IMG/VR virus record: IMGVR_UViG_3300009172_000049
Location: 1-26,117 of that record
Origin: a virus
Length of the DNA stretch: 26,117 bases
Direction: 5' to 3' (one strand)
The notes under the pieces are model-generated. The model had not been told where the DNA came from. It ran no database searches and saw only the letters and a program-made list of their open reading frames with translations. This document shows positions 7,101-23,989 of the stretch, piece after piece. The position numbers and the translations under genes were made by a program. How positions within the stretch are numbered: the first letter of the stretch is position 1; every line of letters starts with the position of its first letter.

Positions 7101-7598
7101 GTAAAATATAAAGTTTTATTTGGAGCCAATGCTACTTTAGATTTACAATCATCTTTTAAAATTGTAAAGAATCCAGAGTTAGTATTAAATGATAACGATA
7201 TTAAATCAAGAGTAATTAGTGCAATCAATGAATTTTTTGCATTAGAAAATTGGGAGTTTGGCGATATCTTCTATTTCTCAGAACTTTCGACATATGTAAT
7301 GAATCAATTATCACCTGACGTAGTAACATTCTTAATTGTTCCTGCGCAAGTATCACAATCTTTTGGTTCGTTATACGAAATTAAATCAGAATTAGATGAA
7401 ATTTTTATAAGCGGAGCAACTGTTGATAATTTAGAAATAATAGATGCTATAACAGCAACTAAAATTAGTGCATCAGGAACTGTTGTAACAAGTTCTATAA
7501 CAGCAAACACAGGCATTACAAGTTCAAGTAGTTCAAATACAGGGATTACAAGTTCAAGTAGTTCAAACAATAGCAGTAGCGGAGGTAGTAGTTACTAA
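4113..7598 (+). CDS. gp6: Baseplate wedge subunit gp6, enlarged
   Basis: This 1161-residue protein is a gp6-type wedge subunit, the protein whose dimers form the inner ring of the T4 baseplate. The N-terminus is typical (RRTMISYLRENYPEDFNDYI, LAIIDLIAFLGQNLAFRIDL, ENYLELAERRESVLRLARLL, residues about 35-110), as are SRYFDLLDATG (about 462), NIIDTYLLTRTYD (about 944) and the end domain ALENWEFGDIFYFSELSTYV (about 1045-1064). It is much longer than T4 gp6 (about 660 residues); much of the excess lies in the middle third. Residues 813-824 (DEDDDGVVDDPE) match an EF-hand-type calcium loop. The last 50 residues are Ser/Thr/Asn-rich with two 10-residue repeats, and may be disordered. The ATG follows GAAGGA at 4101-4106. 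The TAA stop overlaps the ATG of the giant gene by one base. Confidence 0.92.
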   Translation: MSSTDRQNRLLVAEDWKRIYQTYNNADFKSYDFDNLRRTMISYLRENYPEDFNDYIESSEYLAIIDLIAFLGQNLAFRIDLNARENYLELAERRESVLRLARLLSYNPKRNIAANGLLKIESVRTTETLLDSNNFNLEQQTILWNDPSNPDWNEQFTKVLNSALPVNGTFGRPVKKEVVNGVPTQQYRFNSTNADVPAYSFSKPVDGSTTRFEIVSTDISDGVILEESPFPGNNFAFLYRDDGRGPASSNSGFFCHFRQGTLDQGTFNVSNPSSNQTVAVDATNVNNTDVWLYKLDSFGNEVEQWTKVEAVEGNNVIYNSLSKNIRNIFSILTRIDDRVSLIFSDGVFGNLPQGNFRVYYRTSKNQRLVVDPKDMRGISIDIPYASRTGKIETISITYSLQTTVDNATVSETNANIRQRAPATYYTQNRLVTGEDYQIGPLGVSQEIIKTKSVNRTASGISRYFDLLDATGKYSKTNLFGTDGVLYKEFTTNKEKFTFVTQTDVSGVILNNITPILSSKQMRNYYFVKFPKTDTSDLNITWVQSSSDTNLSTGYLQNVNSIKQLLGTFTTSILKLIRPGTSLKFNAPAGKHFMPDGTLMDGEATHLNSRSYKWVKVISVSGNGTEVSATGTGPVTFNDIIPSTAKLVEIKPFLAKNLQTDVQAQLTDQIFAYKTFGLRFDINLGQWRIITETNLNVTGAFNTGKTGDNTNQQLDASWLLKFTNDGETYTVESKGSRYVFESDQEIRFYFDSSDKIYNSLTGKIVKDKIGVLNNNNKPDSVNSFTVDMDWEITKEYRDVEGYVNSKKVEVTFFDEDDDGVVDDPEIFDVIVDEDINPLTKYVFQKKLVTTDGVEDYNYVDNAVEGILIKLNEDTVGALSAYNNNQIFYLTNTEVFKKYDSSLGTLTLITDYKAHIGRDKLKFQYVHAADDNTRIDPSSSNIIDTYLLTRTYDTSYRKYLDGTTITKPLTPSSDSLFQSYGAEINKIKSLSDEVIYHPVKYKVLFGANATLDLQSSFKIVKNPELVLNDNDIKSRVISAINEFFALENWEFGDIFYFSELSTYVMNQLSPDVVTFLIVPAQVSQSFGSLYEIKSELDEIFISGATVDNLEIIDAITATKISASGTVVTSSITANTGITSSSSSNTGITSSSSSNNSSSGGSSY
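7509..7568 (+). repeat. Two-copy 30-bp tandem repeat in the 3' end of gp6
   Basis: Two adjacent 30-base units (7509-7538 and 7539-7568) differ at only two third-codon positions (GGC/GGG and AAT/AAC). Each encodes TGITSSSSSN. Because the unit is a multiple of three, gain or loss of copies would lengthen or shorten the serine-rich tail without a frameshift. The repeat ends 13 bases before the ribosome site of the next gene. Confidence 0.95.
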
Positions 7599-7600
7599 TG
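7581..7600 (+). promoter_or_regulatory. Ribosome site and TAATG overlap coupling gp6 to the giant gene
   Basis: GGAGG (7581-7585) is a strong ribosome site read as the Gly-Gly codons in the tail of gp6. Twelve bases later the gp6 stop and the next start share a base (TAA at 7596-7598, ATG at 7598-7600). This arrangement is typical of translational coupling and fixes the start of the 5250-codon gene. Spacing is slightly long. Confidence 0.75.
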
Positions 7601-10600
7601 GCATACGACAAAGATCAAATGGAGCCAGCACTTCCAGGTGGCGATGATAGCATTAGAAGAAAAAGCGAAAATCACTTACCTAGATATTTCAGAACTTCAC
7701 ACAACTCTAAATTTTTATCTAGCACACTTGACCAGTTAATACAACCGGGAGTAGCAGAAAAGTTAAACGGCTATCTTGGACGTAAAGTTAGTAAAGCATT
7801 TAAGCCTACAGATAATTATATTGGAGCAGTTACTAGCAGTAGAGAACAATATCAACTTGAGCCTGCGGCAGTTATTAAAGATAACTTAGGTAATGTTACC
7901 TATTATAAAGACTATAATGATTATATAAACACTGTAAGTAATCTTGGCGGAAGTGTAACAGATCATAGTAGACTAAACACTCAAGAAACATATGCTTGGA
8001 ACCCGCATATTGATTGGGACAAGTTTACAAATTATAGAGAATACTATTGGCTACCTAATGGTCCTGACCTAGTGACAGTTATAGGACAAACAAAAGATGT
8101 TATTAGTACATACACTGTTGCCTTAGGACAAAATGTTGATAATGTAACATATGTATTTTCACCCGACGGTCTAACAAATAATCCAACGTTGAAACTATAT
8201 AGAGGCCAGACTTATAGATTTGAAATTGACACACCAAATCATCCTATGGCGTTTGCAACAAAGAAAAGTTTCACACCTGGCGAAGCAGTAGTTATTGAAA
8301 CTACAGATGGTGTTCGTAGTTCAGGCGTATTTGATGTTGTCTTGTATGATCAAGACGGTACAGCATATGATGCTGGCGGGTTTATTATAGATCCTGTAAC
8401 TCAAGCACAGGCAGTTGGAAGTGTAAGTTTTGGAGATGCAACTAATACTAGTTTAATATATGATACTGGTATTTCTAAGGTTGACGCTGACGGTAACGCA
8501 CTTGCTACAGTCTATATTGAAAAAGGTATCATAGAATTTACAATACCGGATACTGCTCCAGATGCATTATATTACATTTCAAAAAATGATCCTAATGTAG
8601 CAGGATATATGCAGATCTTTGACATTGAAGATAATACTGCTATTAATGTCGAAGCAGACATTTTAGGTAAAAAAACTTATACTACTAGTAACGGGTTTGC
8701 CTTGTCAAATGGCATGAAAGTAGAGTTTGCTGGAGAAGTTACGCCTGTAAAATATGCCTCTAATGAATGGTATGTTGAAGGTGTTGGCGACAAAATAAAA
8801 TTAGTGCGCCAATCAGATCTAACAGTTAGTGGGTCATTTACTGACGATATTTCTGTACCCTTTGACGCCCAAGGATTTGACTTTTATCCATTTAGTGATG
8901 CAATAGGATATCCTACTAAAAAAGATTATATAGTTATTAACCGTGCAAGTTTAGATGGAAATCTATGGAGTAGATACAATAGATGGTTCCATAAATCTGT
9001 TGTCGAAACAAGTAATACGTTAAGCAATAATCCGTCAACAATACTAGAAGACTCTAGAGCAAAAAGACCAATTATTGAATTTAATCAGGGTTTAAAATTA
9101 TTTAATTTTGGAACAAAGTCTAAAACAGATGTTGATTTAGTAGATACCTTTACAACAGATATATTTTCTACTATTGAAGGTAGTGCAGGATACAATGTTG
9201 ACGGAGTGAATCTTACTAACGGAATGCGTGTATTATTCACAGCAGATACAGATGACTTAGTAAGTGGAAAGATTTACAAAGTAAGTTTTATTACTTTTAG
9301 GAACAACATCCAAATATCATTAGTTGAAGAAACAGACACTCCTCCAGTTACTAATGAAAACGTTTTTGTAAAATTTGGCACAGTTAATGGCGGAAAGTTT
9401 TTTAGTTATAACGGAACTACGTGGACAGTAAGTCAACAAAAAACTTCAATTAATCAACAACCGTTATTTGACATGTACGATGCTAAAGGAAATGCGTTTA
9501 GTAATACAACTAACTATAATTCAACAACGTTTGCTGGTAATAAGATATTTGCATATAAAGTTGGTACAGGAACTAATGATGCAGAATTAGGATTTCCGCT
9601 TTCGTATAGAAATATAACAAATACTGGTGATATAACATTTGACTTTGCATTAACTGGTAATACATTTACATACCAAGTCGGTACTGTACTTTATACATCT
9701 AAAACAGAAACAGGGTTCTTAAGAAAGTATTCTACAATTGATACTTTTGAATATACGAATGGATGGCTCAAAACAGCTAAACTAAGTAACCAGCCTGTAA
9801 TCAGACAATACATATACGATAATACAACTGATAACTTCTATATAGACGTTTATAATAATGTTGATTACATTACTAACTTGTGGTTAACAGTTTACTTAAA
9901 CAACAAACTGCAATTCAAAGATGTTGACTACACTGTTGCGCAAGACGTAAACGGAGTTTCATATATTACATTTGCAAATAGTCTTACTACAGATGATGTA
10001 ATTGTTTTAAAAACAAAAAGTAAATATCCTAAGAACAAAAATGGATATTATGAAATAGCTAAAAACTTAGAGCGCAATCCGCTTAACGATGATATTACGG
10101 AATTTACTCTAGGTGAAGTTAATGATCACGTATCTACAATAGTTGAAGAAATTAATAATTTTTCAGGAGTATTTCCTGGACCAAGTAACTTGCGTGATAT
10201 AGGAAATTTATCAGCTAACGGCAAAAAGTTTTTAAAACATAGTGGTCCTATAAATTTAGCAATGTATCATTTAGTTGACCCTCAAGCAAACATTGTAAAA
10301 TCAATGCGTTATGCTAGAAGAGAATACGGCAAGTTTAAAAGACAATTTTTAGAAACTGCAAACACCTTAGGCTTTGAAGGTCCAGTTAAAGAACACGTAG
10401 ATAATATATTAAAAGAAATGAACAAAGATAAAACGTCTAGTATGCCGTTTTACTTTAGTGACATGATTCCACAAGGCGGTTCTGTAAAAACTACCCATGC
10501 TGTATTAGATTCAGATGAAAGATATTTTCCATTAAGTGCAACATTTTCAATGTCGGTGCTTAGTAGAAAAGCAGTACAGATATACTTAAATGGAACACAA

Positions 10601-13600
10601 TTAACTCACGGTAAAGATTATACATTTAACTCAGAAGGATTTGCTGATGTAACTGCAACAAAGGCAGTCGGCGATGCAATTGATGTATACGAGTATGATA
10701 GTACTAATGCAAGTTTTGCTCCACCTACTCCTACAAAGCTAGGATTATATCCAGCATATCATCCTCAAATTTATACAGATAATACTCCGGTAGTTCCTGT
10801 AACAGTAATTGAAGGTCACGACGGTAGTAAATTTGTTGGGTATGACGACTTTAGAGACAATTTATTATTAGAATTAGAATTAAGAATTTATAATAATATT
10901 AAGATTTCTTATGATACTAATATTTTTGACATACATAATTTTTTACCAGGCAAAGATAGAGACACTGGATTTACACGACAAGAAATAAATTCTTCAATGA
11001 CAGCTGATTTCTTACAATGGAATCAATTAGTTGACGGAGATTATGTTTCAAATTCTGGCTTTGATAGAAATAACGCATTTACGTTTAATTATTCTAGCAC
11101 ACGGTATAAAAATGGTACACAGAATTTACCAGGTCATTGGCGCCAGACTTATATGTATGCGTTTGATACTGATCGCCCACACACCCATCCTTGGGAAATG
11201 CTAGGCTTTACAATTAAACCAACTTGGTGGGAAACAACATACGGACCTGCGCCATACACCCGCAATAATAAAGTGTTGTGGCAAGATTTAGAGCAAGGCA
11301 TAGTTAGAGAACCTAAAAAGTCAATTGTAGTGCGCTCTAAGTATATACGTCCTGGTTTACAAACTACTATTCCTACAGATGACGGCGGAAACCTTTTAAG
11401 TCCAAACGCATCGGGTATTTTAGATAATTTTAATTCTGAATATGTTACAGATAACTGGGTAGTTGGAGACGGTGGCCCAGTTGAGTCGGGGTGGAGACGT
11501 AGCAGCGAATATCCGTTTAGCTTAATAACAGCTCATATACAAAATCAACCAAATGCAATTTTTGCTGCAGGATTTGATAGGTCTAGACAAAAAAGAAACT
11601 TAGCAAATCAAATTGTGTACGGTGATTCAGGCGTTTCAATTAAACTTAGTAATATTGTATTTCCAAATACAATCGATGATACTTCACAGATTTTTACTAG
11701 TGGACTTATAAATTATATTTCAAATTATTTAAGTAGTAACACTGCTGCTTCGTATACAAAATATAAACAGAATTTGGTTGCAATTAAAAATCAAATAGGT
11801 AGTAAAATTGCAGGATACACTGATAAAGAAAAATTTAGATTAATACTTGACTCTCGCACACCTACTAATGAAGGCAATGTCTTTATACCCAAAGAAAATT
11901 ACAATTTAATTCTAAACACTAGTAGCCCTATACAAACTGTTAGTTATAGTGGTGTAATGATCGAAAAACAAGCCGAAGGGTATGTTATAAGAGGTTATGA
12001 TAACTTTGTACCTAATTTTAAATATTATAAAAGAATAGTACGAACAAATGATCCTATAATAAATGTTGGCGGCATATCAGAATCGTTTGTTAATTTTGAT
12101 AGTGACAAAACATACTCTGTAGGACAAATAATAAAAACTGGCGAGTCGTTCCTGAGAGTAACAACAACTCATATTAGTAGTACAAATATAGATGCTAGTA
12201 AATTTGCAACTATTCCTGAACTTCCGTTAATTGGCGGAGCAGTTGCTTCAATGCCACGAGTGTTTGAAGATACATTAAGTACTTTAAATTATGGCGACAA
12301 ATTATCTACGTTACAAGATGTTGTTGACTTTTTATACGGCTACGGAAAATATCTAACAGACCAAGGATTTGCTTTTGAAGAACGCATCGAAGGGTCAAAC
12401 GAAGTAGCGAACTGGCCAACAAGTGCAAAACAGTTTATGTTCTGGACTACACAAAATTGGGCAGCAGGAACTTTAATAACTATATCTCCTGGTGCAAAAA
12501 AATTAAAACTACAGTCTAGTTATAGTGTTGTTGATAACATATATGATACTTTTTACGGATATAGTATTTTAAAAGGTGACGGGAAAAAATTAAACAGCGA
12601 GTATATACGTATTGCAAAAGGTGTAGAAAACGAATGTACTGTAACTGTTGTTAATTCAGCAGACGGCATTTTTGCTGCAAGATTCCCATTAGTTCAAAAA
12701 GAACATGTATTACTTTTAGATAATAAAACAGTGTTTAATGATGTAATTTATGATCCAGCTCCTGGTTATAGACAAGAACGAATTAAAGTATTAGGTTATC
12801 GTACTGATAACTGGAACGGCAGTTTAAATATTCCTGGCTTTATATATGATAATGCAAATGCTGTTGAGTGGGAAGCCTGGTCAGATTATACTATTGGCGA
12901 TCTAGTTAAGTACAAAGAGTTTTATTATAGTGCAGATAAGAAAATTACAGGCACGCAATTATTTAATGCAGATGATTGGAATAGATTAGATAAAAAGCCA
13001 GAAGCTGGCTTGCTAACAAACTTTGATTACAAAATTAATCAGTTTGCAGACTTTTATGATTTAGATAGTGACAATTTTGATACAGAGCAACAACGATTAG
13101 CACAGCATTTAATTGGATATCAGAAACGAACTTACTTAGAAAATATTATTAATGACGATGTAAGTCAATATAAATTTTATCAAGGGTTTATTTTAGATAA
13201 AGGTTCTAAAAACTCTCTTACTAAATTATTTGATGCTCTTGCTAGTGCTGATCAAGAAAGTTTAGAATTCTTCGAAGAGTGGGCAATTAAAGACGGTCAG
13301 TATGGAGCAAGTGAAGGCTTTGAAGAAGTTGAATACTTGCTTGACGAAACGCAGTTTAGATTAGATCCACAACCAATTCTATTAACTGATACTGGCACTG
13401 GACAGGAAACTGATTTAGTTTATAGAATAAAAAACCACGAAACTTATTTAAAAAGCAATAACTACGATCATTCACCATTCCCTACAAAGTATATTCAAAA
13501 AGGATATACAAAGGACTCAGGATATGTAAATCCTAAAGATGTTGATCTAGTTGTTTCTACATATAATGACATTGCTAATAAAAACTTTGACGATATTAAT

Positions 13601-16600
13601 AGTCAAGATTATGTATGGGTCGGTAATGTTAATCAATCATGGTCTGTTTATCAACATGTTATTACAGACTACATAATCGAAGCAGTAGAAACATCAGCAG
13701 GTGAATTTACAATTACTGTTAATGCAACTCCGCTAGATATAAGCACTGGTGATGTGTTAGGTTTATTTAATTTACTTATAAAAACATATGCACCGGGTCA
13801 GTTTGACAGCGCACTAGACTTAACACAAACAGTAAGTCCGATTAAAGGTTTTTACAAAGTTAAATCTGTAGCACTAAACAAAATTACATTTGAAACTACT
13901 GAAACTATTGTAGCAGTAGAGGAATGTGAAGGTAAATTAAGTAAATTTATTAGTGTTAGAGTTGGCAATTTATCCGAAGCTAATACACTAGCTGAACAAG
14001 AAATAGATGCAGAAGAAAAATTGTGGATAGACAATGCAGGAAATGACAAATGGTTAGTTTTACAAAATAAAAACAAGTTCAATGTCCAGCAAGAATTGTC
14101 AAATAGCGAAACAGGCACAGACCACAACTATGGAACATCGATTGCAGTTGATGACAGAAATGTTAGATTAGCTGTAGGTGCTCCTGACTTAGGTGACAAT
14201 GGTAAAGTGTTTGTATACAATAGATCAAGCAATGCTTTAAATTATACATTGTCGCAAGTATTAGATCCAGAAGCAAACATTACTGCTACAGGTCAAAAAT
14301 ACGGGTATGATGTGTCAATGAGTGGCGATGGAGAATATATCATTGTTGGCGCCCCGTATGCATCTAATGTAAAAACAAACTTTAAAAATGCATTTAGCAC
14401 TACTGCTAATTACGCTGCTGGTGACATAGTTAGTTTAAATAACGGCTTATGGCAAGCAGACGATGCAATTTTAGGTGCAGTATCAAATATTACGTTTAAT
14501 AGCTTTAATAGTGTAGCACAGATAAATTATGATATTAATAATTATACCCAAGATGCAGTAGATATTCCAGTAATATTAACTGGCGACTATCCTTTTAAAA
14601 ATATAACTACTGATCATTTCTTATTACGTGCTCCTAAAGCAATGTATGACGGTTCAGGACAGGGTGATCAAATATATTTAAGATGGAACAGCCTTGCTAA
14701 TGCTAATCAAACACAGATTAACTTAACTACACGGGCGCCGTTTGATGGTAGTATTCCGTACTTGTCAAAAGAATACTTAGAATCAGAACATACCATTAGT
14801 TATAAAATTGATGCAATATTATATATTGACGCATCTAACAATATACCAGCTGTTGGTGATATAGTTACTACACAAGGAGCAACAGCAACAGTTGTTTATG
14901 TACATAATGAATCGGCGCAGTTAACAATTTATGTTAATAATATAAACGGTGAATTTCCATTAGAAAACAGTTTGTTTATAAATGGAAACGATTTTATAGG
15001 TGAATATCAGCGCATAGGACCAAACGAATCCATAACTACAACTGGTTCATGGGGCGGCTATTGGTTCATTCAATCAAGTAATCCTTATGCTGTAGGAAGC
15101 ACTAATGCAGATGCTGGTAGATCTTTAGTGTTTAAAGACTTTGTATCAATATCCGATGTAGCTACAGATAGTACGTTAGACGGATATTACTATAACAGTT
15201 TAGATTATGCAACTAGTATACAAAATAGCGAAAGCGTAATTAATAGTTTTATTCAAACGTTAAGTTTTACCGGCACTCCGGGACCATTAGGAAGTTCAAC
15301 TCCTGTAGTAAGTAGAAAATTTGTTGTACGGGCTCCTAAACTATTATCAGATGCTTCTTCAGCAGGTGAAAAGTTTACACTCTATTTAAATAATTTACCA
15401 GATACTGTAACAACAGTAAAATTTGATTCATTGTTATCAATTGGCGCTGGAGAAATTATTACACAGGCTGTTACAGGTGCAACGGCAGTAGTGTTAGAAA
15501 ATACAACTAGCAGTTATACAGCAAAAGTTAATAGCATTACTGGATCGTTTGATTTAATTAACTTATTATCATTTAGTTCCAGCGGTAATCTTGGTATTAA
15601 ACTAACAGAATTGCCAGTGCAATCATTTATATCAGATCCTAGTGCTATAGGATTAAATTTTAGTGCTACTAATAAAGAGCACACTATTGACGATATATGG
15701 GACGGATATATTTCATTTGTTAATACAAAGTTTTTAAATGGCGAACCTTTTGAGCCTATTGTAGGCCAAACAGTTAGAGATAAATCAACTCAGGCTACTG
15801 CTGAAGTAGCGTATTATCAAAGAAGTTTAAATAATGTAACAATATTTGTTAAAAATGTTTCAGGTAACTGGAGTTTAGGTAATCAATTCGGTAACAACGC
15901 TGAAATAGAAATGATGCCATATGCTCCAGGACCAAACCCAGACGTCTATGGCCGTAGCGGAATTTACACTATTCCAAGAGTAATGGGCCAAATACAGCGT
16001 GTTAACTTAGGCACTGATTCAGCAGGTATTGGTAAGTTGTTTGTTGTAGATACAAACGCAAATATTACTGCACCAGCCGGCGATTTTAGAACTGCTTCAC
16101 AGCTTGGTGCAAAAATTGTTAACAATTCATTAACTGGAGACTTTGCATACTTAGAACCAGATACTAATTTTGAATACTGGATGTATAAGCAAACTGTAAT
16201 TAATGGCATTCCGCGTTCTGCAAATACTCCGACGAGTGATAACCTGGATTGGACTGAAGTCTATAAAGTTCCTACAGCGTCAACCGGCAGTATTGGTGAT
16301 ACTCCATTTACAAACGAGGGAATTTACTACATATACCAAAAAAATAATGGTGGCATTTATATCAGCCTAGGTAGTTTTGTTGGACCAGAAAGACAGTCTA
16401 ATAATTACTTAGGTTCTATAGTAGAAGTTACTAAAAGTGCAACCGGAATTTACAGAGGATTTGTTAGTGCGCCAGCAGACACAACAGTATCTAATCCTGG
16501 AAAGATTTATTTCTTAAAGAATGGAACAGAAAACGGCATTTTGTATAATTGGGAATATGCTAAAAATAAAAATTACAAAGGCGAATTTAATGCTTCGTCT

Positions 16601-19600
16601 AGTTATTTTACAGGAAATATTGTTTCATTAGATGATAAATTGTACAATGCTGTTACAAATATTACAGCAGGTACGTTTAATGCATTACAGTGGAATAGCA
16701 CAGATGATTTAATTGACTATGTAGGGTATGTTCCAAATGACACCGGCGTTAGTATTATAAACGACAGTAGTTATGATCTTAGTACAGTATTAGATCAAGG
16801 GCTATTGTACGATTTCGCAAATAGCTTTGATGTTACGCCTGATGGTGAAGTGTTAATTGTAAATGCTAAGTATGGCAACGGAAAACCTAACTTAGTTGTT
16901 GTTTATAGAATCTTAAACGGACAATATCAGCGCTCACAGCAACTTACTTCGCCTAGCAATACAGAAGCATTCGGCGAAAGTATTGCTATTAGTACTGATG
17001 GTAAATTAATTGCAGTATCGGCTCCGTTAGACGATACTAATAAAAATAATCAAGGCAAGGTTTATATTTACAAAAAGGTAAATGAGATATTTGTATTCTC
17101 TCAAACACTAATGAGTCCTAACAATAAGACTTCTCAGTTTTTTGGAGACAAGATTGATTTTGACGGCAACAGATTAGTTGTAAATTCTAAAAACGGCAAC
17201 AACTGGGTTGATACAACTTTTGATGTTTATTCATCACCTACTGGCGTTGGATATACATTAGATAAAACTAGTACAAAAAATCTTTCTAGTACAGTGTTTG
17301 ATAACGATTTTACAACATACAAAAAACAATATGAACAACAAGGTTCTATATATGTGTATGAAGTTATAAATGACACAATGATGTATGCACAGCAACTACA
17401 ATATCAAAATACATCTAGTGCTGTTACTGAATTTGGTAAAGATTTTAAACTTAAAAACAACCATGTTTATGTTGGATTGCCTAAAGTAAGTGTAAATGCT
17501 GTGTACACTGGTAGTGTTATTGACTTTAGAATACCTGACAATAAAATGATTTGGGAAACTTTAAGACAGCCAAAAGACGCTGTAGATATTTCAAAAATTA
17601 AACGTGCAATTTTATATAATGTAAAAACAAATAAGTTACTTACATATTTAGATTATATTGATCCAGTACAAGGAAAAGTTGCAGGACCAGCTGAACAAAA
17701 TCTTACATATAAAACATATTACGATCCTGCATATTATACTGTAGGGGATAATAACGTAACTGTTATGCCCTCAGCAAGTTGGGGAGCAGAACAAGTTGGC
17801 GAACTGTGGTGGAATCTTACAAATGCAAAATACTTAAATGCGTATCAGTCAGATGTTATATTCTCAGCAAATAACTGGAGTCAGTTATTTGATAGTAACA
17901 CAGTTGATGTCTACGAATGGGTAGAGTCTGATGTATTGCCTAGTGTGTGGAATAGCCAAACTAACCAAACTGCCGCAGTTGTAGATGGTATAGATGGTAC
18001 CAGTTTATATGCTGATACAGTTTATTCATCTAGACAAACATATGATAAAATAAGTGGCACGTTAGGTATTAAGTATTACTTCTGGGTTAAAAACAAGCGA
18101 ACAATGCCCGATGTAGATTTTAGAACAATAAGCTCGTTTGATGTTGCAAAATTAATTGAAGACCCTAAGGGACAAGGATATAAATTTGCGGCACTTATTT
18201 CAGAAAATAGTTTCACATTATATAACTGTGAAAGTTTGTTAGAAAATAAAGATGTTGCATTTAGTTTACAGTATTGGACTATTGATAACCAAGATATAAA
18301 CATTCATAATCAGTATCAAATTGTAACTGACGGACTTTCAACAAGTAAACCTAATAGAGATATTGAACGTAAGTGGTTTGATAGTCTAGTAGGTTATGAT
18401 GAGCAAAGTAAACAGGTACCTTCACCAAATTTATCACCTAAACAAAAATACGGAATTTTAAATAGCCCAAGACAGAGTTGGTTTGTAAATAGCGCCGAAG
18501 CTCTTAAACAAGTGATGGAAAGAGTAAATGCCGTATTACTAGAAAATTTAATAATTGATAATAAAGATCTTACAAAGATCAAAGCATCAGCCCTGCAACC
18601 TAGTGTAGTAAGTAGGGAGTTTGACACAACTGTTGATACTGTTGCAGATTTAGAGTTTATTGGTGTTGCAAAGGCACAGCAAGCAACTATGCAGTTAACA
18701 GTTAACGACGGTGTAATTACAAATGTTGTTGTATTAAATGCAGGCCGCGGTTACCTTGTTGCTCCTACGTATAAAATTGTAGGACCAGGAACAGGTGCTG
18801 AATTAGAGTTTACAATAAACAATTTAGGTGTTATAACAAATGTAAGTGTAGTCAACGGCGGAACAAACTATAGTTCAACTGACGTAATTACAATTAGAAG
18901 ATACACAGCACTAGTAAAAACTGACGAAACTATATTAGGTAAGTGGGCTTTATATGAAAGAGATAGTACAGCAAGAATTTGGCAACGAACAGCAAGCCAA
19001 TCATACGATGTAACATTATTTTGGGATTATATTGATTGGTATGCAACCGGTTACACTCAATTTACAGAGACAAATTTTGTAATTGAGGGAGCATATCAAC
19101 TACCAAGTATTAATGATACAATTGGGGACGTTGTTAAGATAAACAATGTTGGCTCAGGCGGTTGGCTATTACTTAGAAAAATAACTAACCAGGCTAATGT
19201 AGATTATACAATTAACTATGAAACTATTGGTAGACAGAATGGTACTATTAAATTTAAGAATACACTCTACGACACAGCTGCAAGTGCAACTGGATTTGAT
19301 ATTATTAGTTTTGATTCTCAATTCTTTGACAGTGTACCTAGCACAGAAATTAGAGCTGTTTTAAATTGTATTAAACATGATCTGTTTACTGAAGAATTGG
19401 CACTTGAATATAATAAACTGTTTTTTGCAAGTTTACGTTATGTATTCTCAGAACAACAAAATGTTGACTGGGCGTTTAAGACAAGTTTTGTAAAAGCAAA
19501 ACACAATGTAGGACAGCTTCGTGAAGACATTACGTTTAACAATGATAGTCTACCTAGTTATGAAAAATATCTAGAAGAAGTAAAGCCATTTAAAACAAAG

Positions 19601-22600
19601 TTACGTGAATACCTAAGTGCTTACGAAAAACTTGACAACAGTCAAAGTAGAGTTACAGACTTTGATTTACAGCCGATATATAATGACACTACAAAACTAA
19701 TAGAACCGCAAAATGTAAAAGTAGTTGGCGATACATTAATTGGTATAAATGATTCTTTAGAAACATATCCGTTTAAAAATTGGACAGATAATGTTGGATT
19801 TAAAGTAACAGAAATACAAATAGCTAATGGCGGATCAGGGTATACACAGGCACCTACTATTAAATTAACAGGCGGTGGCGGCACTGGTGCTACAGCTATT
19901 GCTAAATTAGGAGTAAACGGAACTGTAACAAGTGTAGAAGTTACAAATAAAGGAAGTAGTTATATTACTGCTCCTACATTAATGTTAACTGGCAGTGTAT
20001 CTGAAACAGGTAAAAATGCAAAACTTAGTGTTATCCTAGGAGACGGATTAACAAGAGGAATGCTAAACGTAGTAAAATTTGATAGAGTAAGCGGTGATTA
20101 TTCTATTACTAGTATTAATGAAACAGAAACATTTACAGGCACTGGCTCCAAGTACATTTACGAACTAAAATGGCCAATGGATCTTAAAACTACAAACGTT
20201 ACTGTAACTGTAAATAACATTGAACTTTTAAGAAGTGAATATAGCTTTATTAATATAAAAGATAGTACTACAACAAGTTATACTAGGTATCATGGAAAAA
20301 TTACACTTGCAGAACCAACACCTGTTAACACTTCTATTGTTATTACTTACAAAAAAGCAATTAGCTTATTAACAGCACAGGATAGAATAAACATTGCGTA
20401 CAACCCTGTAACAGGTCAATTTGCAAAAGACCTTGGACAGTTAATGGACGGTGTTGACTATGGCGGAGTAGAAGTTAAAAGTTTCGACTTTGGTGGCCCT
20501 ACAGGCTGGGATACAGCCCCTTGGTTCACTAGCGAGTATGATACTTACGACCAAACTTTTGAAGATGAAACATTTACTTTAGATGGTAGTACAATTAGTG
20601 TTACATTAGCTACGCCTTTAGAAAGCGGAGTTGTATATAACTTATACAAAAATGGTGTAAGATTAGATGACCCAGACTGGGTAAATGACAGTTCGCAGTT
20701 TACAAATCCAAATGCCGTAATGAGAAGTATAACAGGTGATGGAGTACAAACATTAATTGAGTTAGATGAATTAGGTATATCTAATGGAGCAAATGATGTT
20801 ATAGTTATACGTAAGAGTACTAGCGATGGAAGTTTCCTTCCTGTTCCAGGAACGTATGACACACTTATTGAAGGCGGCGCCTTAGAATACAATACTGCTA
20901 AAGGCATACTTGCAGAAGAAATTAATATTGACGGTGACGGGTTTGCAACAACTGCTAACAGTGGCGGCCCAGACGAGAATCTGCCAGGCAGAGTATTTGA
21001 CACAGTTGATATAAAGGTTTATGAAAGGCCTACAGGCGGATCAAGTAAAATACATTCAAGAAATTACGTAGGCGACGGTACAACTACAGATTATGATATT
21101 GGAACAACACCTATATTGGACGAGCTAGTATTTGTAAAAGTTAATAATGTTATACAAACAGCATACACTATTGATTATGAAACTAACAAAGTTAAATTTA
21201 CTACTGCACCAACATTAGCATCTAAAATTAATCTTGTAACTCTAGACTATAGTGGTACAAACATATTAGACTTAGATGAATTTATATCGGATGGTAGTAC
21301 AGCTGATTTCTTAACAAACATTACACATACTCCTAATTTAAGTAGTTTAGTTACTATTGACGGTAAAAAAGTTGAGCATGTTCTTACAAAAAGTAACAAC
21401 ACATATGCTGCAGAAAATAGAATTGTTATCCGATTTGCAGAACCTCCTAAGATTGATGCTGTAGTAAAATATGCAATTTTTGAAGGACCTATACAAAACT
21501 TTAGTGCAGTGACTATAGACGAGTTTATTGCTGATGGTAGCACGATATTGTTTGATCTTACACAAACACCGTTTACACAAAAGCCACATGAATGGTTTAC
21601 TATTGTACAAGTAAACAACACAATATTAAATGCAGGATATTCTCAAAAATATGTTATGACAGAGTCAAGAGAATATCAGTTAAAGCTATGGCAAGTACCT
21701 ACAGGTTCTGTAAGGTCAGGACAGTTAAGAATTTACTTAAACGGTCAAAAAATTAACTATATTGACGATTGGTCATTTACAAGTGCAGGTCAGTATAATT
21801 CTGCATTAGACGCTGACGATCAACTAGGTAGTGCGGTATTGTTAAATGCCAGTGTTGGAGCACCTGGTGACATCTTAAGAATATATATTGTAGGACAAGA
21901 AGACAGTACTGCCGCAGGCGGAGATTATAGATATGGTTACTTTGACAACGACAATAACTTTGTAGAAGATGACGGAAAATTATCTATCTATTCTACTTTG
22001 TCAAACGGTGACAAGGTTAAAGTTTACCAGTTTAGTAACCACGACACTCAAGGTATTGAACGACAGAGTTTAGATGTTGTTGAGCGTACACTACTATCCC
22101 CAGGTGTTGCAGCTAACAGACAGGTATTTGAAATTGACGGAAGCACAGCAAATTTAAATTTATTACCGCCACTGGCAGCTAGAAAGCAATATGCAGTATA
22201 TTTAAATAATACAAGAATTGACGATCCAAATTACAATACTGCACAGCAAACAAACGACAACGCAGTGCTATTAACAATTACTGGAGCAGAGCAAACTATT
22301 TTTGATGCGCAAGCAACAGGACTTGTTCTTGTTACAGGTGATATTTTAGAAATTGTAGAACTTGGTGCTAGTGTTACTCCTGACAGCGGTACAGCTGACT
22401 GGTATGAACTAAGACAACTAAGAGCTGGGTATATAAATTTACAAAGTCCAGCAGTTGACGATCAGTACGTTTGGGTTGTTAAAAACGGAACCTTATTAGA
22501 TCCATCAGTTGACTATGTTGTTACTCCTAATAAAATGCGTATTAAGTTAAAAGAAAACTTAGATGAGAACGACACTGTTGAAACTTTCCATTTTGCAAAA

Positions 22601-23350
22601 GAAACTTTGAAAAATAAGTTTGGATGGCGACAATTTAAAGATATATTAAACAGAGATATCTATAAGAGATTAGATGGTAGACAAAATTACAGATTATCTG
22701 AACCATTAGCATTTAATGATAAGGTAATTACAGTAGATAATAGTACTAATTTACCTGACCCAGTTCCAGGATCAAAGTATCCGGGTGTAATATTTGTTGA
22801 CAATGAACGTATAGAATACTTTAGAAAGACTGGTAATACTCTTGGACAGCTAAGAAGAGGAACATTGGGTACTGGAATTAAATCAATTTATTCTGTAGGC
22901 ACAGAGCTGTATGATCAAAGTCAAACAGCAACTATGCCATATAAGGACGAAGTATTAACAAGTACATTTACAGCTGATGGTACATCAGCAGCTTATGATC
23001 TTGACTTTACTCCTGCTAGTGTAAACGAGTTTGAAGTATTTGTTGCAGGTCGTAGACTAAGAAAAACAGCATTAGAGTCGTATCAGTTAGATACAACGTT
23101 GCGTACAACATATGCAACATCGACAGAACAAATTAGTCAAGATTCTCCATTAGGAGATGTAACTTTACCAGCAGAGTTTAGCATACAGAACAGCAACGAA
23201 TTAGTGTTGCTAGAAACACCAGGAGTAAATCAAAAGGTAATAGTAATAAGAAAACAAGGTAGAATATGGAATGTTCCAGGCACAGCGTTAAGTAATGCAG
23301 AATCCGACATTAGTAGATTCTTAAGATCAGCAACGGTTGACTTACCCTGA
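7598..23350 (+). CDS. Giant multidomain virion/baseplate protein (5250 residues) in the gp7 position
   Basis: One unbroken frame encodes about 580 kDa (estimated at 110 Da per residue). Domain walk: residues 27-155, a block I associate with T4-like marine phage baseplate proteins (LPRYFRTSHNSKFLSSTLDQ, YAWNPHIDWDKF, YYWLPNGP); 183-343, cupredoxin-like; 925-1240, conserved phage block (EGHDGSKF, LLLELELRIYNNIKI, RPHTHPWEMLGF); about 1500-1800, two modules with a Y..GD.V pattern; 1830-1910, HLIGYQKRTYLENI and LFDALASADQ; about 2140-3311, FG-GAP-like propeller interrupted by about 645 residues; 3380-3650, conserved phage block (VGELWWNLTNAKYL, DVYEWVESDVLPSVW, ILNSPRQSWFVNSAEALKQV); 3703-3767 and 4070-4134, Gly-Ser-Gly-Tyr-type repeats; about 4320-5250, beta-rich DGST repeats, with PGVIFVDNERIEYF...LRRGTLGTG at about 5060-5095. 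There is no signal peptide and no membrane segment. It directly follows gp6, where T4 has gp7 (about 1030 residues), so a wedge-peripheral role is inferred. It may carry enzyme or receptor functions that I cannot see. Confidence 0.85.
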   Translation: MAYDKDQMEPALPGGDDSIRRKSENHLPRYFRTSHNSKFLSSTLDQLIQPGVAEKLNGYLGRKVSKAFKPTDNYIGAVTSSREQYQLEPAAVIKDNLGNVTYYKDYNDYINTVSNLGGSVTDHSRLNTQETYAWNPHIDWDKFTNYREYYWLPNGPDLVTVIGQTKDVISTYTVALGQNVDNVTYVFSPDGLTNNPTLKLYRGQTYRFEIDTPNHPMAFATKKSFTPGEAVVIETTDGVRSSGVFDVVLYDQDGTAYDAGGFIIDPVTQAQAVGSVSFGDATNTSLIYDTGISKVDADGNALATVYIEKGIIEFTIPDTAPDALYYISKNDPNVAGYMQIFDIEDNTAINVEADILGKKTYTTSNGFALSNGMKVEFAGEVTPVKYASNEWYVEGVGDKIKLVRQSDLTVSGSFTDDISVPFDAQGFDFYPFSDAIGYPTKKDYIVINRASLDGNLWSRYNRWFHKSVVETSNTLSNNPSTILEDSRAKRPIIEFNQGLKLFNFGTKSKTDVDLVDTFTTDIFSTIEGSAGYNVDGVNLTNGMRVLFTADTDDLVSGKIYKVSFITFRNNIQISLVEETDTPPVTNENVFVKFGTVNGGKFFSYNGTTWTVSQQKTSINQQPLFDMYDAKGNAFSNTTNYNSTTFAGNKIFAYKVGTGTNDAELGFPLSYRNITNTGDITFDFALTGNTFTYQVGTVLYTSKTETGFLRKYSTIDTFEYTNGWLKTAKLSNQPVIRQYIYDNTTDNFYIDVYNNVDYITNLWLTVYLNNKLQFKDVDYTVAQDVNGVSYITFANSLTTDDVIVLKTKSKYPKNKNGYYEIAKNLERNPLNDDITEFTLGEVNDHVSTIVEEINNFSGVFPGPSNLRDIGNLSANGKKFLKHSGPINLAMYHLVDPQANIVKSMRYARREYGKFKRQFLETANTLGFEGPVKEHVDNILKEMNKDKTSSMPFYFSDMIPQGGSVKTTHAVLDSDERYFPLSATFSMSVLSRKAVQIYLNGTQLTHGKDYTFNSEGFADVTATKAVGDAIDVYEYDSTNASFAPPTPTKLGLYPAYHPQIYTDNTPVVPVTVIEGHDGSKFVGYDDFRDNLLLELELRIYNNIKISYDTNIFDIHNFLPGKDRDTGFTRQEINSSMTADFLQWNQLVDGDYVSNSGFDRNNAFTFNYSSTRYKNGTQNLPGHWRQTYMYAFDTDRPHTHPWEMLGFTIKPTWWETTYGPAPYTRNNKVLWQDLEQGIVREPKKSIVVRSKYIRPGLQTTIPTDDGGNLLSPNASGILDNFNSEYVTDNWVVGDGGPVESGWRRSSEYPFSLITAHIQNQPNAIFAAGFDRSRQKRNLANQIVYGDSGVSIKLSNIVFPNTIDDTSQIFTSGLINYISNYLSSNTAASYTKYKQNLVAIKNQIGSKIAGYTDKEKFRLILDSRTPTNEGNVFIPKENYNLILNTSSPIQTVSYSGVMIEKQAEGYVIRGYDNFVPNFKYYKRIVRTNDPIINVGGISESFVNFDSDKTYSVGQIIKTGESFLRVTTTHISSTNIDASKFATIPELPLIGGAVASMPRVFEDTLSTLNYGDKLSTLQDVVDFLYGYGKYLTDQGFAFEERIEGSNEVANWPTSAKQFMFWTTQNWAAGTLITISPGAKKLKLQSSYSVVDNIYDTFYGYSILKGDGKKLNSEYIRIAKGVENECTVTVVNSADGIFAARFPLVQKEHVLLLDNKTVFNDVIYDPAPGYRQERIKVLGYRTDNWNGSLNIPGFIYDNANAVEWEAWSDYTIGDLVKYKEFYYSADKKITGTQLFNADDWNRLDKKPEAGLLTNFDYKINQFADFYDLDSDNFDTEQQRLAQHLIGYQKRTYLENIINDDVSQYKFYQGFILDKGSKNSLTKLFDALASADQESLEFFEEWAIKDGQYGASEGFEEVEYLLDETQFRLDPQPILLTDTGTGQETDLVYRIKNHETYLKSNNYDHSPFPTKYIQKGYTKDSGYVNPKDVDLVVSTYNDIANKNFDDINSQDYVWVGNVNQSWSVYQHVITDYIIEAVETSAGEFTITVNATPLDISTGDVLGLFNLLIKTYAPGQFDSALDLTQTVSPIKGFYKVKSVALNKITFETTETIVAVEECEGKLSKFISVRVGNLSEANTLAEQEIDAEEKLWIDNAGNDKWLVLQNKNKFNVQQELSNSETGTDHNYGTSIAVDDRNVRLAVGAPDLGDNGKVFVYNRSSNALNYTLSQVLDPEANITATGQKYGYDVSMSGDGEYIIVGAPYASNVKTNFKNAFSTTANYAAGDIVSLNNGLWQADDAILGAVSNITFNSFNSVAQINYDINNYTQDAVDIPVILTGDYPFKNITTDHFLLRAPKAMYDGSGQGDQIYLRWNSLANANQTQINLTTRAPFDGSIPYLSKEYLESEHTISYKIDAILYIDASNNIPAVGDIVTTQGATATVVYVHNESAQLTIYVNNINGEFPLENSLFINGNDFIGEYQRIGPNESITTTGSWGGYWFIQSSNPYAVGSTNADAGRSLVFKDFVSISDVATDSTLDGYYYNSLDYATSIQNSESVINSFIQTLSFTGTPGPLGSSTPVVSRKFVVRAPKLLSDASSAGEKFTLYLNNLPDTVTTVKFDSLLSIGAGEIITQAVTGATAVVLENTTSSYTAKVNSITGSFDLINLLSFSSSGNLGIKLTELPVQSFISDPSAIGLNFSATNKEHTIDDIWDGYISFVNTKFLNGEPFEPIVGQTVRDKSTQATAEVAYYQRSLNNVTIFVKNVSGNWSLGNQFGNNAEIEMMPYAPGPNPDVYGRSGIYTIPRVMGQIQRVNLGTDSAGIGKLFVVDTNANITAPAGDFRTASQLGAKIVNNSLTGDFAYLEPDTNFEYWMYKQTVINGIPRSANTPTSDNLDWTEVYKVPTASTGSIGDTPFTNEGIYYIYQKNNGGIYISLGSFVGPERQSNNYLGSIVEVTKSATGIYRGFVSAPADTTVSNPGKIYFLKNGTENGILYNWEYAKNKNYKGEFNASSSYFTGNIVSLDDKLYNAVTNITAGTFNALQWNSTDDLIDYVGYVPNDTGVSIINDSSYDLSTVLDQGLLYDFANSFDVTPDGEVLIVNAKYGNGKPNLVVVYRILNGQYQRSQQLTSPSNTEAFGESIAISTDGKLIAVSAPLDDTNKNNQGKVYIYKKVNEIFVFSQTLMSPNNKTSQFFGDKIDFDGNRLVVNSKNGNNWVDTTFDVYSSPTGVGYTLDKTSTKNLSSTVFDNDFTTYKKQYEQQGSIYVYEVINDTMMYAQQLQYQNTSSAVTEFGKDFKLKNNHVYVGLPKVSVNAVYTGSVIDFRIPDNKMIWETLRQPKDAVDISKIKRAILYNVKTNKLLTYLDYIDPVQGKVAGPAEQNLTYKTYYDPAYYTVGDNNVTVMPSASWGAEQVGELWWNLTNAKYLNAYQSDVIFSANNWSQLFDSNTVDVYEWVESDVLPSVWNSQTNQTAAVVDGIDGTSLYADTVYSSRQTYDKISGTLGIKYYFWVKNKRTMPDVDFRTISSFDVAKLIEDPKGQGYKFAALISENSFTLYNCESLLENKDVAFSLQYWTIDNQDINIHNQYQIVTDGLSTSKPNRDIERKWFDSLVGYDEQSKQVPSPNLSPKQKYGILNSPRQSWFVNSAEALKQVMERVNAVLLENLIIDNKDLTKIKASALQPSVVSREFDTTVDTVADLEFIGVAKAQQATMQLTVNDGVITNVVVLNAGRGYLVAPTYKIVGPGTGAELEFTINNLGVITNVSVVNGGTNYSSTDVITIRRYTALVKTDETILGKWALYERDSTARIWQRTASQSYDVTLFWDYIDWYATGYTQFTETNFVIEGAYQLPSINDTIGDVVKINNVGSGGWLLLRKITNQANVDYTINYETIGRQNGTIKFKNTLYDTAASATGFDIISFDSQFFDSVPSTEIRAVLNCIKHDLFTEELALEYNKLFFASLRYVFSEQQNVDWAFKTSFVKAKHNVGQLREDITFNNDSLPSYEKYLEEVKPFKTKLREYLSAYEKLDNSQSRVTDFDLQPIYNDTTKLIEPQNVKVVGDTLIGINDSLETYPFKNWTDNVGFKVTEIQIANGGSGYTQAPTIKLTGGGGTGATAIAKLGVNGTVTSVEVTNKGSSYITAPTLMLTGSVSETGKNAKLSVILGDGLTRGMLNVVKFDRVSGDYSITSINETETFTGTGSKYIYELKWPMDLKTTNVTVTVNNIELLRSEYSFINIKDSTTTSYTRYHGKITLAEPTPVNTSIVITYKKAISLLTAQDRINIAYNPVTGQFAKDLGQLMDGVDYGGVEVKSFDFGGPTGWDTAPWFTSEYDTYDQTFEDETFTLDGSTISVTLATPLESGVVYNLYKNGVRLDDPDWVNDSSQFTNPNAVMRSITGDGVQTLIELDELGISNGANDVIVIRKSTSDGSFLPVPGTYDTLIEGGALEYNTAKGILAEEINIDGDGFATTANSGGPDENLPGRVFDTVDIKVYERPTGGSSKIHSRNYVGDGTTTDYDIGTTPILDELVFVKVNNVIQTAYTIDYETNKVKFTTAPTLASKINLVTLDYSGTNILDLDEFISDGSTADFLTNITHTPNLSSLVTIDGKKVEHVLTKSNNTYAAENRIVIRFAEPPKIDAVVKYAIFEGPIQNFSAVTIDEFIADGSTILFDLTQTPFTQKPHEWFTIVQVNNTILNAGYSQKYVMTESREYQLKLWQVPTGSVRSGQLRIYLNGQKINYIDDWSFTSAGQYNSALDADDQLGSAVLLNASVGAPGDILRIYIVGQEDSTAAGGDYRYGYFDNDNNFVEDDGKLSIYSTLSNGDKVKVYQFSNHDTQGIERQSLDVVERTLLSPGVAANRQVFEIDGSTANLNLLPPLAARKQYAVYLNNTRIDDPNYNTAQQTNDNAVLLTITGAEQTIFDAQATGLVLVTGDILEIVELGASVTPDSGTADWYELRQLRAGYINLQSPAVDDQYVWVVKNGTLLDPSVDYVVTPNKMRIKLKENLDENDTVETFHFAKETLKNKFGWRQFKDILNRDIYKRLDGRQNYRLSEPLAFNDKVITVDNSTNLPDPVPGSKYPGVIFVDNERIEYFRKTGNTLGQLRRGTLGTGIKSIYSVGTELYDQSQTATMPYKDEVLTSTFTADGTSAAYDLDFTPASVNEFEVFVAGRRLRKTALESYQLDTTLRTTYATSTEQISQDSPLGDVTLPAEFSIQNSNELVLLETPGVNQKVIVIRKQGRIWNVPGTALSNAESDISRFLRSATVDLP
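8144..8626 (+). other. Cupredoxin-like domain inside the giant protein, copper site apparently lost
   Basis: Residues about 183-343. The opening NPTLKLYRGQTYRFEI and NHPMAF and the closing EFTIPDTAPDALYYISKND match the pattern of cupredoxin-like domains common in marine phage structural proteins. In copper-binding relatives the last loop reads roughly YYCxxHPxMGG; here the equivalent residues are S328, D331 and V334, while the P332-N333 scaffold and G336 remain. H215 survives. A stretch of about 80 residues is inserted between the two halves. The likely role is structural. The fold assignment rests on motif recognition. Confidence 0.55.
14020..17535 (+). other. Seven-blade FG-GAP-like beta-propeller split by an insertion
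   Basis: Residues about 2140-3311 contain blade-like units of the form (Y/F)G..(I/V)......(V/I)....P....G.(V/I)(F/Y)(V/I)Y: blade 1 at 14123-14235 (AVGAPDLGDNGKVFVYN); blade 2 first half at 14297-14372 (IIVGAPYASN), second half at 16310-16395 (EGIYYIYQKNNG); blade 3 at 16408-16560 (FVSAPADTTVSNPGKIYFL); blade 4 at 16813-16920; blade 5 at 16966-17100 (IAVSAPLDD, GKVYIYK); blade 6 at 17140-17360 (GSIYVYEV); blade 7 at 17429-17530 (YVGLPKVS). A strand before blade 1 (KWLVLQNKNKFNVQQEL) could close the ring. The blades lack the DxDxDG calcium loop of integrin-type repeats. Blades 4, 6 and 7 are weaker matches. Confidence 0.6.
14615..15905 (+). repeat. Diverged internal duplications within the propeller insertion
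   Basis: Two long units begin with related sequences, FLLRAPKAMYDGSGQGDQIY (from about 14618) and FVVRAPKLLSDASSAGEKFT (from about 15320), about 702 bases apart. Each continues into a shorter motif of the form G..(I/V)....GATA.V......(L/Y)...V..I.G.F.L: GDIVTTQGATATVV (about 14855), GEIITQAVTGATAVV (about 15449), and a third without the long leader, GQTVRDKSTQATAEVAYY (about 15761). The similarity is clear in protein and weak in DNA, so the duplications are old. Confidence 0.6.
18703..20000 (+). repeat. Two separated pairs of Gly-Tyr beta repeats in the giant protein
   Basis: Two regions of about 65 residues each (18703-18897 and 19805-19998) share the alternating pattern (I/V)T.V.V.N.G..Y...PT....G.GTGA. 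Examples are ITNVVVLNAGRGYLVAPTYK and VTSVEVTNKGSSYITAPTLM. Such repeats are frequent in marine phage structural proteins and probably form short beta units. About 300 residues of other sequence separate the two regions. Confidence 0.7.
20566..23060 (+). repeat. C-terminal series of DGST-type beta repeats in the giant protein
   Basis: At least six diverged units share the opening F..DG(S/T)(T/S) followed by alternating hydrophobics and a (V/I)..N(G/N)..(I/L) strand: near 20566 (TLDGSTISVTLATPL), 21067 (VGDGTTTDYDIGTTP), 21280 (FISDGSTADF), 21520 (FIADGSTILFDL), 22130 (EIDGSTANLNLLPPL) and 22970 (FTADGTSAAYDL). The first and fifth are closest and also share R.DDP(D/N) and NAV...ITG over about 90 residues. 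Likely tandem beta-sandwich or fibre-like domains. Confidence 0.65.
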
Positions 23351-23374: not shown

Positions 23375-23989
23375 ATGAACGATAACTTTAAAGAAAAAAA
23401 CGGTATACTGATCAAAGGTCATATCAAAATACATAACCCGGAAACGGGGGAAATTTTCATTGATAAAAATAATGCTATTCATTATGAAAATATGAGTATT
23501 GCATTAGCAGACAGCGTTGGCAATAGAGGCAACGGCTGGATATATGAAATGAGCTTTGGCAACGGCGGTACTAGCGTTGATCCTACAGGCATTATTACAT
23601 ACTTGACGCCAAACTCTACAGGAACAAATGCAAGTTTGTATAATCAGACGTATACAAAAATTGTAGATGATAACAGTGTAAACAACACTGATCCGGTTAG
23701 AAATAAGATCGAAACAAGACACGTTAGTGGTACAAACTATACAGATGTATTAATAACATGTTTACTAGATTACGGCGAACCTAGTGGCCAGGATGCGTTT
23801 GATACAGCAACAGATCAAAACAGTTTATATGTATTTGACGAGCTGGGATTAAAAGGGTATTCGGCGTCAGGTACTGGAAATTTACTAACACATGTTGTTT
23901 TCCACCCTGTCCAAAAGTCTTTGAACAGGTTAATTCAAATTGATTATACTGTAAGGATACAAAGTCTTGCAGGGACGGTTGGGGAATAA
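23375..23989 (+). CDS. Putative virion structural protein, 204 residues
   Basis: A beta-rich, acidic protein without signal peptide or membrane segment. The N-terminus (KGHIKIHNPETGEIFIDKNN, then AIHYENMSIALADSV) and the following block (WIYEMSFGNGG, ITYLTPNSTGTNASLYNQTY) resemble proteins I associate with structural gene clusters of marine T4-like phages, but I cannot give it a firm T4 gene number. By order it sits where T4 has gp8, yet it is shorter than gp8 (334 residues) and I see no specific match, so I leave it unnamed. Start choice: ATG at 23375 with AGGA seven bases upstream. It ends three bases before the next gene, whose ribosome site (GGGGAA, 23981-23986) lies in its last codons, implying coupled translation. 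Baseplate wedge or fibre-attachment protein are both reasonable alternatives. Confidence 0.65.
   Translation: MNDNFKEKNGILIKGHIKIHNPETGEIFIDKNNAIHYENMSIALADSVGNRGNGWIYEMSFGNGGTSVDPTGIITYLTPNSTGTNASLYNQTYTKIVDDNSVNNTDPVRNKIETRHVSGTNYTDVLITCLLDYGEPSGQDAFDTATDQNSLYVFDELGLKGYSASGTGNLLTHVVFHPVQKSLNRLIQIDYTVRIQSLAGTVGE

Follow-up and report, generated by a model that had tools for sequence, protein, structure and literature searches.

Giant proteins at the position of gp7 have been described in cyanophages. In P-SSM2, gp7 (PSSM2_111) comprises 5195 amino acids and the gene order is gp25-gp6-gp7-gp8. Judged by annotated coordinates, genes found right after gp6 in other cyanophages encode proteins of 4878 (Sf-CH8), 4225 (ACG-2014f), 4067 (Bellamy), 3533 (S-MbCM7, annotated VrlC), 3494 (S-CAM4) and 3007 (S-SSM7) amino acids. 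For pelagi- and cyanomyophages, the accessible text of one report describes T4 Gp7 as absent and apparently replaced by VrlC, a change that it connects with a baseplate of two layers (PMC7029224). Hence, a giant in the gp7 slot is not new.

A second set of giants occurs in jumbo phages and is catalogued as PHROG 10938. Members include PA5oct gp355 (3857 amino acids), Atu_ph07 gp180 (4449), a Phosso protein (4555), PBECO4 gp538 (3333) and CBB_236 (3340). The family is labelled merely 'virion structural protein'. In the accessible parts of the open-access literature we found no structure for it, and the giants appear there as table rows only. An analogy for the role proposed below comes from phage XM1. 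The available text on its baseplate places one copy of gp17, the gp7 counterpart (242 amino acids), in a core bundle with two copies of gp16; unresolved parts of gp17 hold the tail spikes (PMC10457771).

Here, we analyse a giant gene in a 26,117-nucleotide stretch of viral DNA, referred to as the window. Its product comes from an uncultured phage lineage and belongs to the already catalogued PHROG 10938 family.

The giant gene and its neighbours

The window encodes the following proteins.

1936..3303, + strand: baseplate hub or spike-like protein (phrog_13211, E 5.5e-36)
3306-3596: 96-amino-acid protein between the hub-like gene and gp25
3609..4061, + strand: gp25 homolog, wedge or sheath initiator (PF04965, E 3.2e-10, above cut-off; phrog_261, E 1e-18)
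4113..7598, + strand: gp6 homolog, 1161 amino acids (phrog_10646, E 6.5e-293)
7598..23350, + strand: giant protein, 5250 amino acids, ATG start (PHROG 10938)
23375..23989, + strand: 204-amino-acid protein, 3′ of the giant gene (phrog_11259, E 1.1e-71)
23993..26008, + strand: tail collar fibre protein, 671 amino acids (PF07484, E 7.1e-17)

At E 0.01, no PHROG family matched the 96-amino-acid protein. The gp6 and giant genes overlap by one base, shared by the stop codon of the former and the start codon of the latter. At 7488-7569, the 3′ end of gp6 contains a tandem repeat with a unit of 30 bases (2.2-2.4 copies). The repeat encodes part of a Ser/Thr/Asn/Gly-rich gp6 tail, just upstream of the giant gene.

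A preliminary description of this DNA had reported a single frame of 5250 codons in the gp7 slot of the baseplate cluster. Our ORF analysis reproduces the frame exactly, immediately 3′ of gp25 and gp6; it has no internal stop. Across the same interval, the other frames contain 424 and 746 (forward) or 372, 213 and 463 (reverse) stop codons. With hundreds of stops in each of these, the open frame is not a chance occurrence. Third-position GC content is between 0.20 and 0.25 in all 11 blocks of 500 residues. Hence, the gene looks coding throughout. The calculated mass and pI of the product are 584 kDa and 4.75, respectively. Three consecutive pieces of the protein matched PHROG 10938 with E values of 1.1e-187, 1.1e-62 and 2.3e-77. 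The category assigned to PHROG 10938 is 'head and packaging', whereas the gene is located in a baseplate cluster.

We compared the locus with those of nine named jumbo phages. As in the window, a gene at the gp6 position lies directly upstream of the giant in eight of the nine. Annotations call this gene baseplate wedge in Phosso, PA5oct, Atu_ph07, BF, XbC2 and PBECO4, and hypothetical in Munch. In Vibrio phage 2.275.O the gp6-position gene (10938-14801 of locus L006), recognised by its position, is annotated as carbohydrate-binding module family 5/12. Hence, CBM-type modules may enter gp6 too. The exception is SCTP-2 (L004), where a 3096-amino-acid gene precedes the giant and the gp6-like gene is some 90 kb away. 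On the 3′ side, a gene for a protein of about 200 amino acids, likened to that at 23375-23989 by size only, is present in Phosso, SCTP-2 and Vibrio 2.275.O, and after one small gene in PA5oct. In BF, XbC2, Munch and PBECO4 (L007-L010), a gene for a Clp-type ATPase or protease follows on the opposite strand.

Core and modules of the giant protein

We aligned the whole chain of the window protein with 12 close and nine distant homologs. A near-identical sequence (G001) and a broken one (G013) were excluded. At least five of the nine distant homologs align at 3029 of the 5250 residues. The better-kept blocks in these homologs are residues 1-150 (approximately), 451-965, 1033-2050 (with gaps), 3300-4100 and some later patches. 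Segments absent from most of them include residues 167-353, 966-1032, 1755-1800, most of 2048-3033, 4840-4928 and 5142-5224. The absent segments are discrete and set between conserved flanks. The features of the chain are as follows.

7598..8047, + strand: conserved N-terminal block, residues 1-150, with an LPxxFR...FL pattern near residue 27 (nine distant homologs have a mean identity to the window protein of 0.18-0.32 in steps of 50 residues)
8087..8632, + strand: predicted cupredoxin-like fold, residues 164-345 (AF2 model; mostly missing in nine distant homologs)
8948..10492, + strand: conserved core block, residues 451-965 (alignment occupancy)
10694..12859, + strand: conserved core block, residues 1033-1754 (alignment occupancy)
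12860..12997, + strand: CBM5/12-like 46-residue segment, residues 1755-1800 (weak fold matches; missing in most distant homologs)
13172..13252, + strand: FYxGxIxxKG[TS] motif, residues 1859-1885, resembling FYxxKGxxxSxxxLF of T4 and cyanophage gp7
13739..17497, + strand: variable region, residues 2048-3300 (approximately), with FG-GAP repeats, a CBM5/12-like module and a long insert
17498..19897, + strand: second conserved core block, residues 3301-4100
18716..18895, + strand: GGxGYxxPT-type module copy 1, residues 3707-3766 (self match E 8e-9; PHROG matches)
19805..19987, + strand: GGxGYxxPT-type module copy 2, residues 4070-4130 (self and PHROG matches)
22715..22897, + strand: small module, residues 5040-5100 (approximately), similar to cyanophage gp7 at residues 67-125 (probability 40-42 and E about 3e-4 in hhalign)

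Taken with the module matches, the occupancy pattern supports a conserved core interrupted by modules. The alternation of conserved blocks with surface-type modules, proposed from the window's letters, is thus upheld by alignment occupancy and by Pfam and fold matches. The accompanying claim, that conserved blocks extend from the N-terminus to the last 200 residues, applies to the 12 close relatives. Here, conservation spans residues 1 to 5250, with poor occupancy near 2600 and 4850. In the distant homologs, the blocks and later patches given above are the better kept.

The N-terminal modules were assessed using a model of residues 1-1190. In BFVD, this model matched A0A6J5L0K2, from an uncultured Caudovirales phage, with 44% identity over 1184 alignment columns. 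Cupredoxin enzymes made up most of the best Foldseek rows (query TM scores 0.06-0.08), and one domain of the model accounts for them. Among the rows listed for this low-confidence model, we could identify none as gp7. A Klebsiella phage baseplate chain (9f4b_FA) appeared at rank 22 (E 2.6e-3). Residues 164-345 of the AF2 model (mean pLDDT 62.6) superpose on a nitrite reductase chain, 2dv6_A, with a VIA-align Z score of 10.9 and a deviation of 2.2 Å over 99 residues. Cupredoxins hold copper through ligands in a Cys-His-Met loop. The consensus at the expected place in the giant is YYxSxND. Hence, judging by these residues, the copper site has probably been lost.

Residues 1753-1799 gave weak fold matches. 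The Z score was 6.4 for 8fqc_P1; chitin-binding domains scored about 3.9-5.3, with some 45 residues superposed. They also weakly resemble domains of the receptor-binding proteins of phages Milano and 7-7-1 (Z about 4-6.4). Sequence searches of solved structures returned no match up to E 1 for query A1, and only 9rkv_M (E 1.6) and 8fqc_P1 (E 2.3) for query A3. A second model, of residues 1600-2075 (mean pLDDT 59), had no fold match at E ≤0.001.

Pfam matches lie further along the chain. Residues 1301-3200 matched FG-GAP_2 (PF14312; E 3.3e-17, 62.8 bits against a cut-off of 23) and CBM_5_12 (PF02839; E 5.5e-9, 36.3 bits against a cut-off of 26.2). With residues 1-1600, CBM_5_12 scored 16.5 bits, which is under the cut-off. 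By pattern, FG-GAP-like repeats occur near residues 2178, 2235, 3125 and 3182, with a long stretch in between. PHROG matches near residues 3690-4130, including Hc2 and tail-fibre families, fall on the GGxGYxxPT-type modules. The same applies to an apparent gp8 within the giant. Thus, phrog_438 matches residues 3686-3764 (approximately) through its positions 179-256, a GGxGYxxPT-type module, while T4 gp8 matches positions 3-86. Comparison of the giant with T4-type gp8 by hhalign also gave no match, and we rejected this candidate.

Relation to gp7 and proposed role

The preliminary description had placed the gene in the gp7 slot and measured it against T4 gp7. The first part stands: the giant gene follows gp25 and gp6, although T4's own gp25 is located elsewhere in T4. 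The second part is doubtful. T4 gp7 (1032 amino acids) has the same gene position and possibly the same KG motif, but is about five times shorter than the window giant. Profile similarity was not detected. When 12 blocks of the giant were compared with six T4-type gp7 and gp8 proteins, the best probabilities were 2.0 and 0.7, respectively. As a control, a profile of the window gp6 and seven gp6-position proteins of phage relatives was compared with six T4-type gp6 proteins; this gave a probability of 70.3 (E 4e-5). A further 28 blocks compared with T4 gp7 reached at most 4.5, for residues 2601-2900, away from the KG motif. The giant also had no match to phrog_964, which contains T4 gp7, at E 0.01. 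Since position fits gp7 and sequence does not, we file the protein under PHROG 10938 and not as a gp7 ortholog. It is probably a functional counterpart of gp7.

We consider it fairly likely that the giant, a PHROG 10938 member of the RaK2, Atu_ph07 and PA5oct kind, takes the place of gp7 in the baseplate wedge, with its core beside gp6 and lineage-specific modules directed outward. By analogy with XM1 gp17, the conserved core would make part of the wedge frame and would probably be bound to gp6. The cupredoxin-fold, chitin-binding-type and FG-GAP modules set into this core would face outward, where they might bind envelope polysaccharide or hold fibres. Six copies, if present, would together weigh about 3.5 MDa. 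In favour of the proposal are the family and gene position, the detection of homologs in virions, the pattern of core and modules and, as a hint, the motif at residue 1859. Against it count the negative profile comparisons with T4 gp7 and gp8, the gene order of SCTP-2 and the PHROG category, together with the N-terminal, motif-ranking and fold comparisons given below. If the giant is a gp7 counterpart, it would illustrate how inserted binding modules can enlarge a wedge subunit, and a role would be found for one of the largest jumbo-phage proteins still unexplained.

A stronger form of this explanation sees the giant as an enlarged but true ortholog of the gp7 of T4 and of cyanophages, which in the latter takes the form of VrlC-like giants. 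The LPxxFR segment and the KG-motif helices would then be the gp7 core, parted by some 1800 inserted residues. We hold this to be somewhat less likely than not. The cyanophage genes occupy the same slot and have similar sizes (3007-5195 amino acids), and the small module at residues 5040-5100 is common to both. The KG-motif domain is also shared by T4-type and cyanophage gp7: the N-termini of seven cyanophage gp7 proteins matched T4-type gp7 with a probability of 95.8 (E 6.7e-9), in the domain containing FYxxKGxxxSxxxLF. A similar motif begins at residue 1859 of the giant. Among 22 aligned family members, FY is present in 21 (Phosso has FH), while the next G and the KG are present in all 22; other positions vary. 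Compared with a combined gp7 profile, the motif scored 22.1. This exceeds each of 200 column shuffles (mean 12.2, SD 2.3, maximum 20.7).

Other comparisons count against orthology or give it no support. The hhalign probability for the motif was only 3.6. When 85 sliding blocks were compared with the gp7 profile, three overlapping blocks containing the motif ranked 2-4, below residues 2701-2885, which match another part of the profile. From FY to KG, the motif of the giant is four residues longer than its gp7 equivalent. In fold searches with the KG region, where the model is weak, no gp7 chain was identifiable among the 50 rows listed by each, a result that carries little weight. The LPxxFR...FL segments align with cyanophage gp7 at the expected place, and residues 1-150 are a candidate core-bundle segment. 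However, 100 shuffles gave scores with a mean of 10.7 and a maximum of 23.6, and the alignment score of 14.1 does not stand out from these. The giant may be orthologous to T4 gp7, but these comparisons do not establish it.

Similarly, the cyanophage gp7/VrlC giants (phrog_2885) resemble the window protein in slot, in size (P-SSM2) and in small modules, but end-to-end homology with the window family was not detected. An HMM of 22 family members found the window protein and PA5oct, and neither P-SSM2 gp7 nor S-SSM7 gp7. We also rejected P-SSM2 gp7 as a direct homolog. Briefly, blastp against a four-sequence database returned a total of 35 rows, counting those from T4-type queries. Rows for the jumbo family were short pieces, with a best E value of 3e-6. 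A broader proposal would unite the two sets. Thus, two lineages of T4-type phages, the cyanophages and the group comprising RaK2, Atu_ph07, PA5oct and uncultured jumbo phages, would each have gp7 enlarged ~3-5-fold by surface-binding modules that part the core-bundle segment from the KG-motif helices. One ~584 kDa chain per wedge would take over peripheral baseplate parts that T4 makes from gp8-gp11. We regard this as doubtful.

Alternatively, the giant could be a receptor-binding or fibre-anchoring protein that is merely located at the gp7 position and is not a wedge subunit. Several of its modules are of surface-binding type, a collar-fibre gene is found 3′ in the window and, in SCTP-2, the giant occurs without an adjoining gp6. 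Conversely, a gp6-position gene adjoins the giant in the other eight of nine loci, and about 3000 residues are common to phages of very different hosts. Host-range proteins in general are not shared so broadly. We thus judge this explanation unlikely and prefer assignment of the giant to the wedge.

Virion evidence, frame integrity and distribution

The proposal that the giant is part of the particle, testable by virion proteomics, finds support at the level of the family. Published mass spectrometry places homologs in virions of three related phages, phAPEC6, CBB and PA5oct; the window phage itself lies outside this evidence. In the accessible text on phAPEC6, gp245 is a hypothetical protein of 381.88 kDa that adjoins the baseplate wedge protein gp244; mass spectrometry of virions identified 17 unique peptides (7.6% coverage), and phAPEC6 is counted as the same species as PBECO4 (PMC7247149). 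The tail map published for phAPEC6, with a resolution of about 25 Å, is too coarse to place the protein (PMC7247149). The PBECO4 homolog has a calculated mass of 381.87 kDa if begun at the eleventh codon. For CBB_236, the available part of the report lists 21 peptides and 7.72% coverage (PMC5259590). According to the CBB record, this is a 10,023-base gene after the baseplate wedge gene CBB_237. The record for PA5oct gp355 carries the note ESI-MS/MS. In phage AP-J-162, the accessible text gives ORF 58 (4455 amino acids) as 'structural protein', adjoining the baseplate wedge ORF 57 (PMC11242549).

Conceivably, the chain is a precursor cleaved into several virion proteins. Its size would fit, and the low coverage in relatives, as given in the accessible reports, demonstrates no intact chain. 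Nevertheless, no processing domain is found among the Pfam, NCBIfam and PHROGs matches of the giant, and we consider cleavage of this kind very unlikely.

The preliminary description had further argued against a chance fusion and had named an assembly error joining genes as grounds for refutation. We find no such join. A second IMG/VR record (G001; 3300031569_000033), likely to be a sample independent of the window, has a giant frame of equal length and differs at 51 of 15,753 bases. Two further contigs differ from the window at 7 of 3913 (L016) and 3 of 3482 bases (L029). In two relatives whose last 700 residues are 64% and 57% identical to the window protein, the frames comprise 5270 and 5257 codons, respectively. 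A search with these 700 residues found a match in 16 of 20 records and internal stops were reported in none of the match rows. Errors can occur in contigs of this family: in L050, a 28-base tandem duplication around 12200-12420, likely an assembly or sequencing error, splits the giant frame into 1482 and about 3536 codons. This apart, nothing speaks for an assembly join of separate genes in the window, and the second record and the divergent relatives of like length refute it.

We determined the distribution of the family by searching 50,697 phage records (threshold E 1e-5). The first 1600 residues matched 60 records and the last 1950 residues matched 57, with 40 of each listed. With 141 residues around position 1860, 59 records matched at E 1; two Stenotrophomonas phages did so only at E 0.8. 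The listed matches are to jumbo phages, among them RaK2, PBECO4, CBB, GAP32, Munch, PA5oct, Atu_ph07, Phosso and SCTP-2. The exceptions to jumbo size are two records, both from Klebsiella phages, that measure 86 and 110 kb. In Stenotrophomonas phage RAS14, a 3138-amino-acid gene follows a gp6-like gene; its match to the window family is only E 0.8. In an uncultured phage of 595 kb, 108 residues gave a weak match to gp6 (E 3e-9), and ORFs of at least 300 amino acids in the surrounding 40 kb reach at most 1640 amino acids. Hence, not every huge phage has the giant.

The preliminary description had treated the giant as unusual, and this view did not hold. PHROG 10938 already exists, P-SSM2 gp7 has 5195 amino acids in the same slot, and the size is normal among close relatives. 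The nine named jumbo-phage homologs (3333-4555 amino acids) are homologous to the window giant over much of the chain but fall short of its length by about 700-1900 residues. The cupredoxin-fold segment, residues 1755-1800 and most of 2048-3033 are missing from the majority of them. IMG/VR relatives are in the window's size class, with no essential difference seen in the parts compared. A wider scan with residues 3301-4283 identified 212 stretches that encode a match, and the survey used 80 of these. The giant frame was complete in 48 of the 80 loci, which extended only 10 kb upstream of the match, so that frames with longer N-terminal parts were scored as incomplete. These 48 frames form 29 clusters at 95% identity. 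All but one have 4298-5583 codons; the outlier, L155, has only 1821. The window giant is in the upper part of the ordinary size range of its relatives. It is one more member of a family of 3300-5600 residues that is common in uncultured phage contigs and also present in culturable jumbo phages of E. coli and Pseudomonas.
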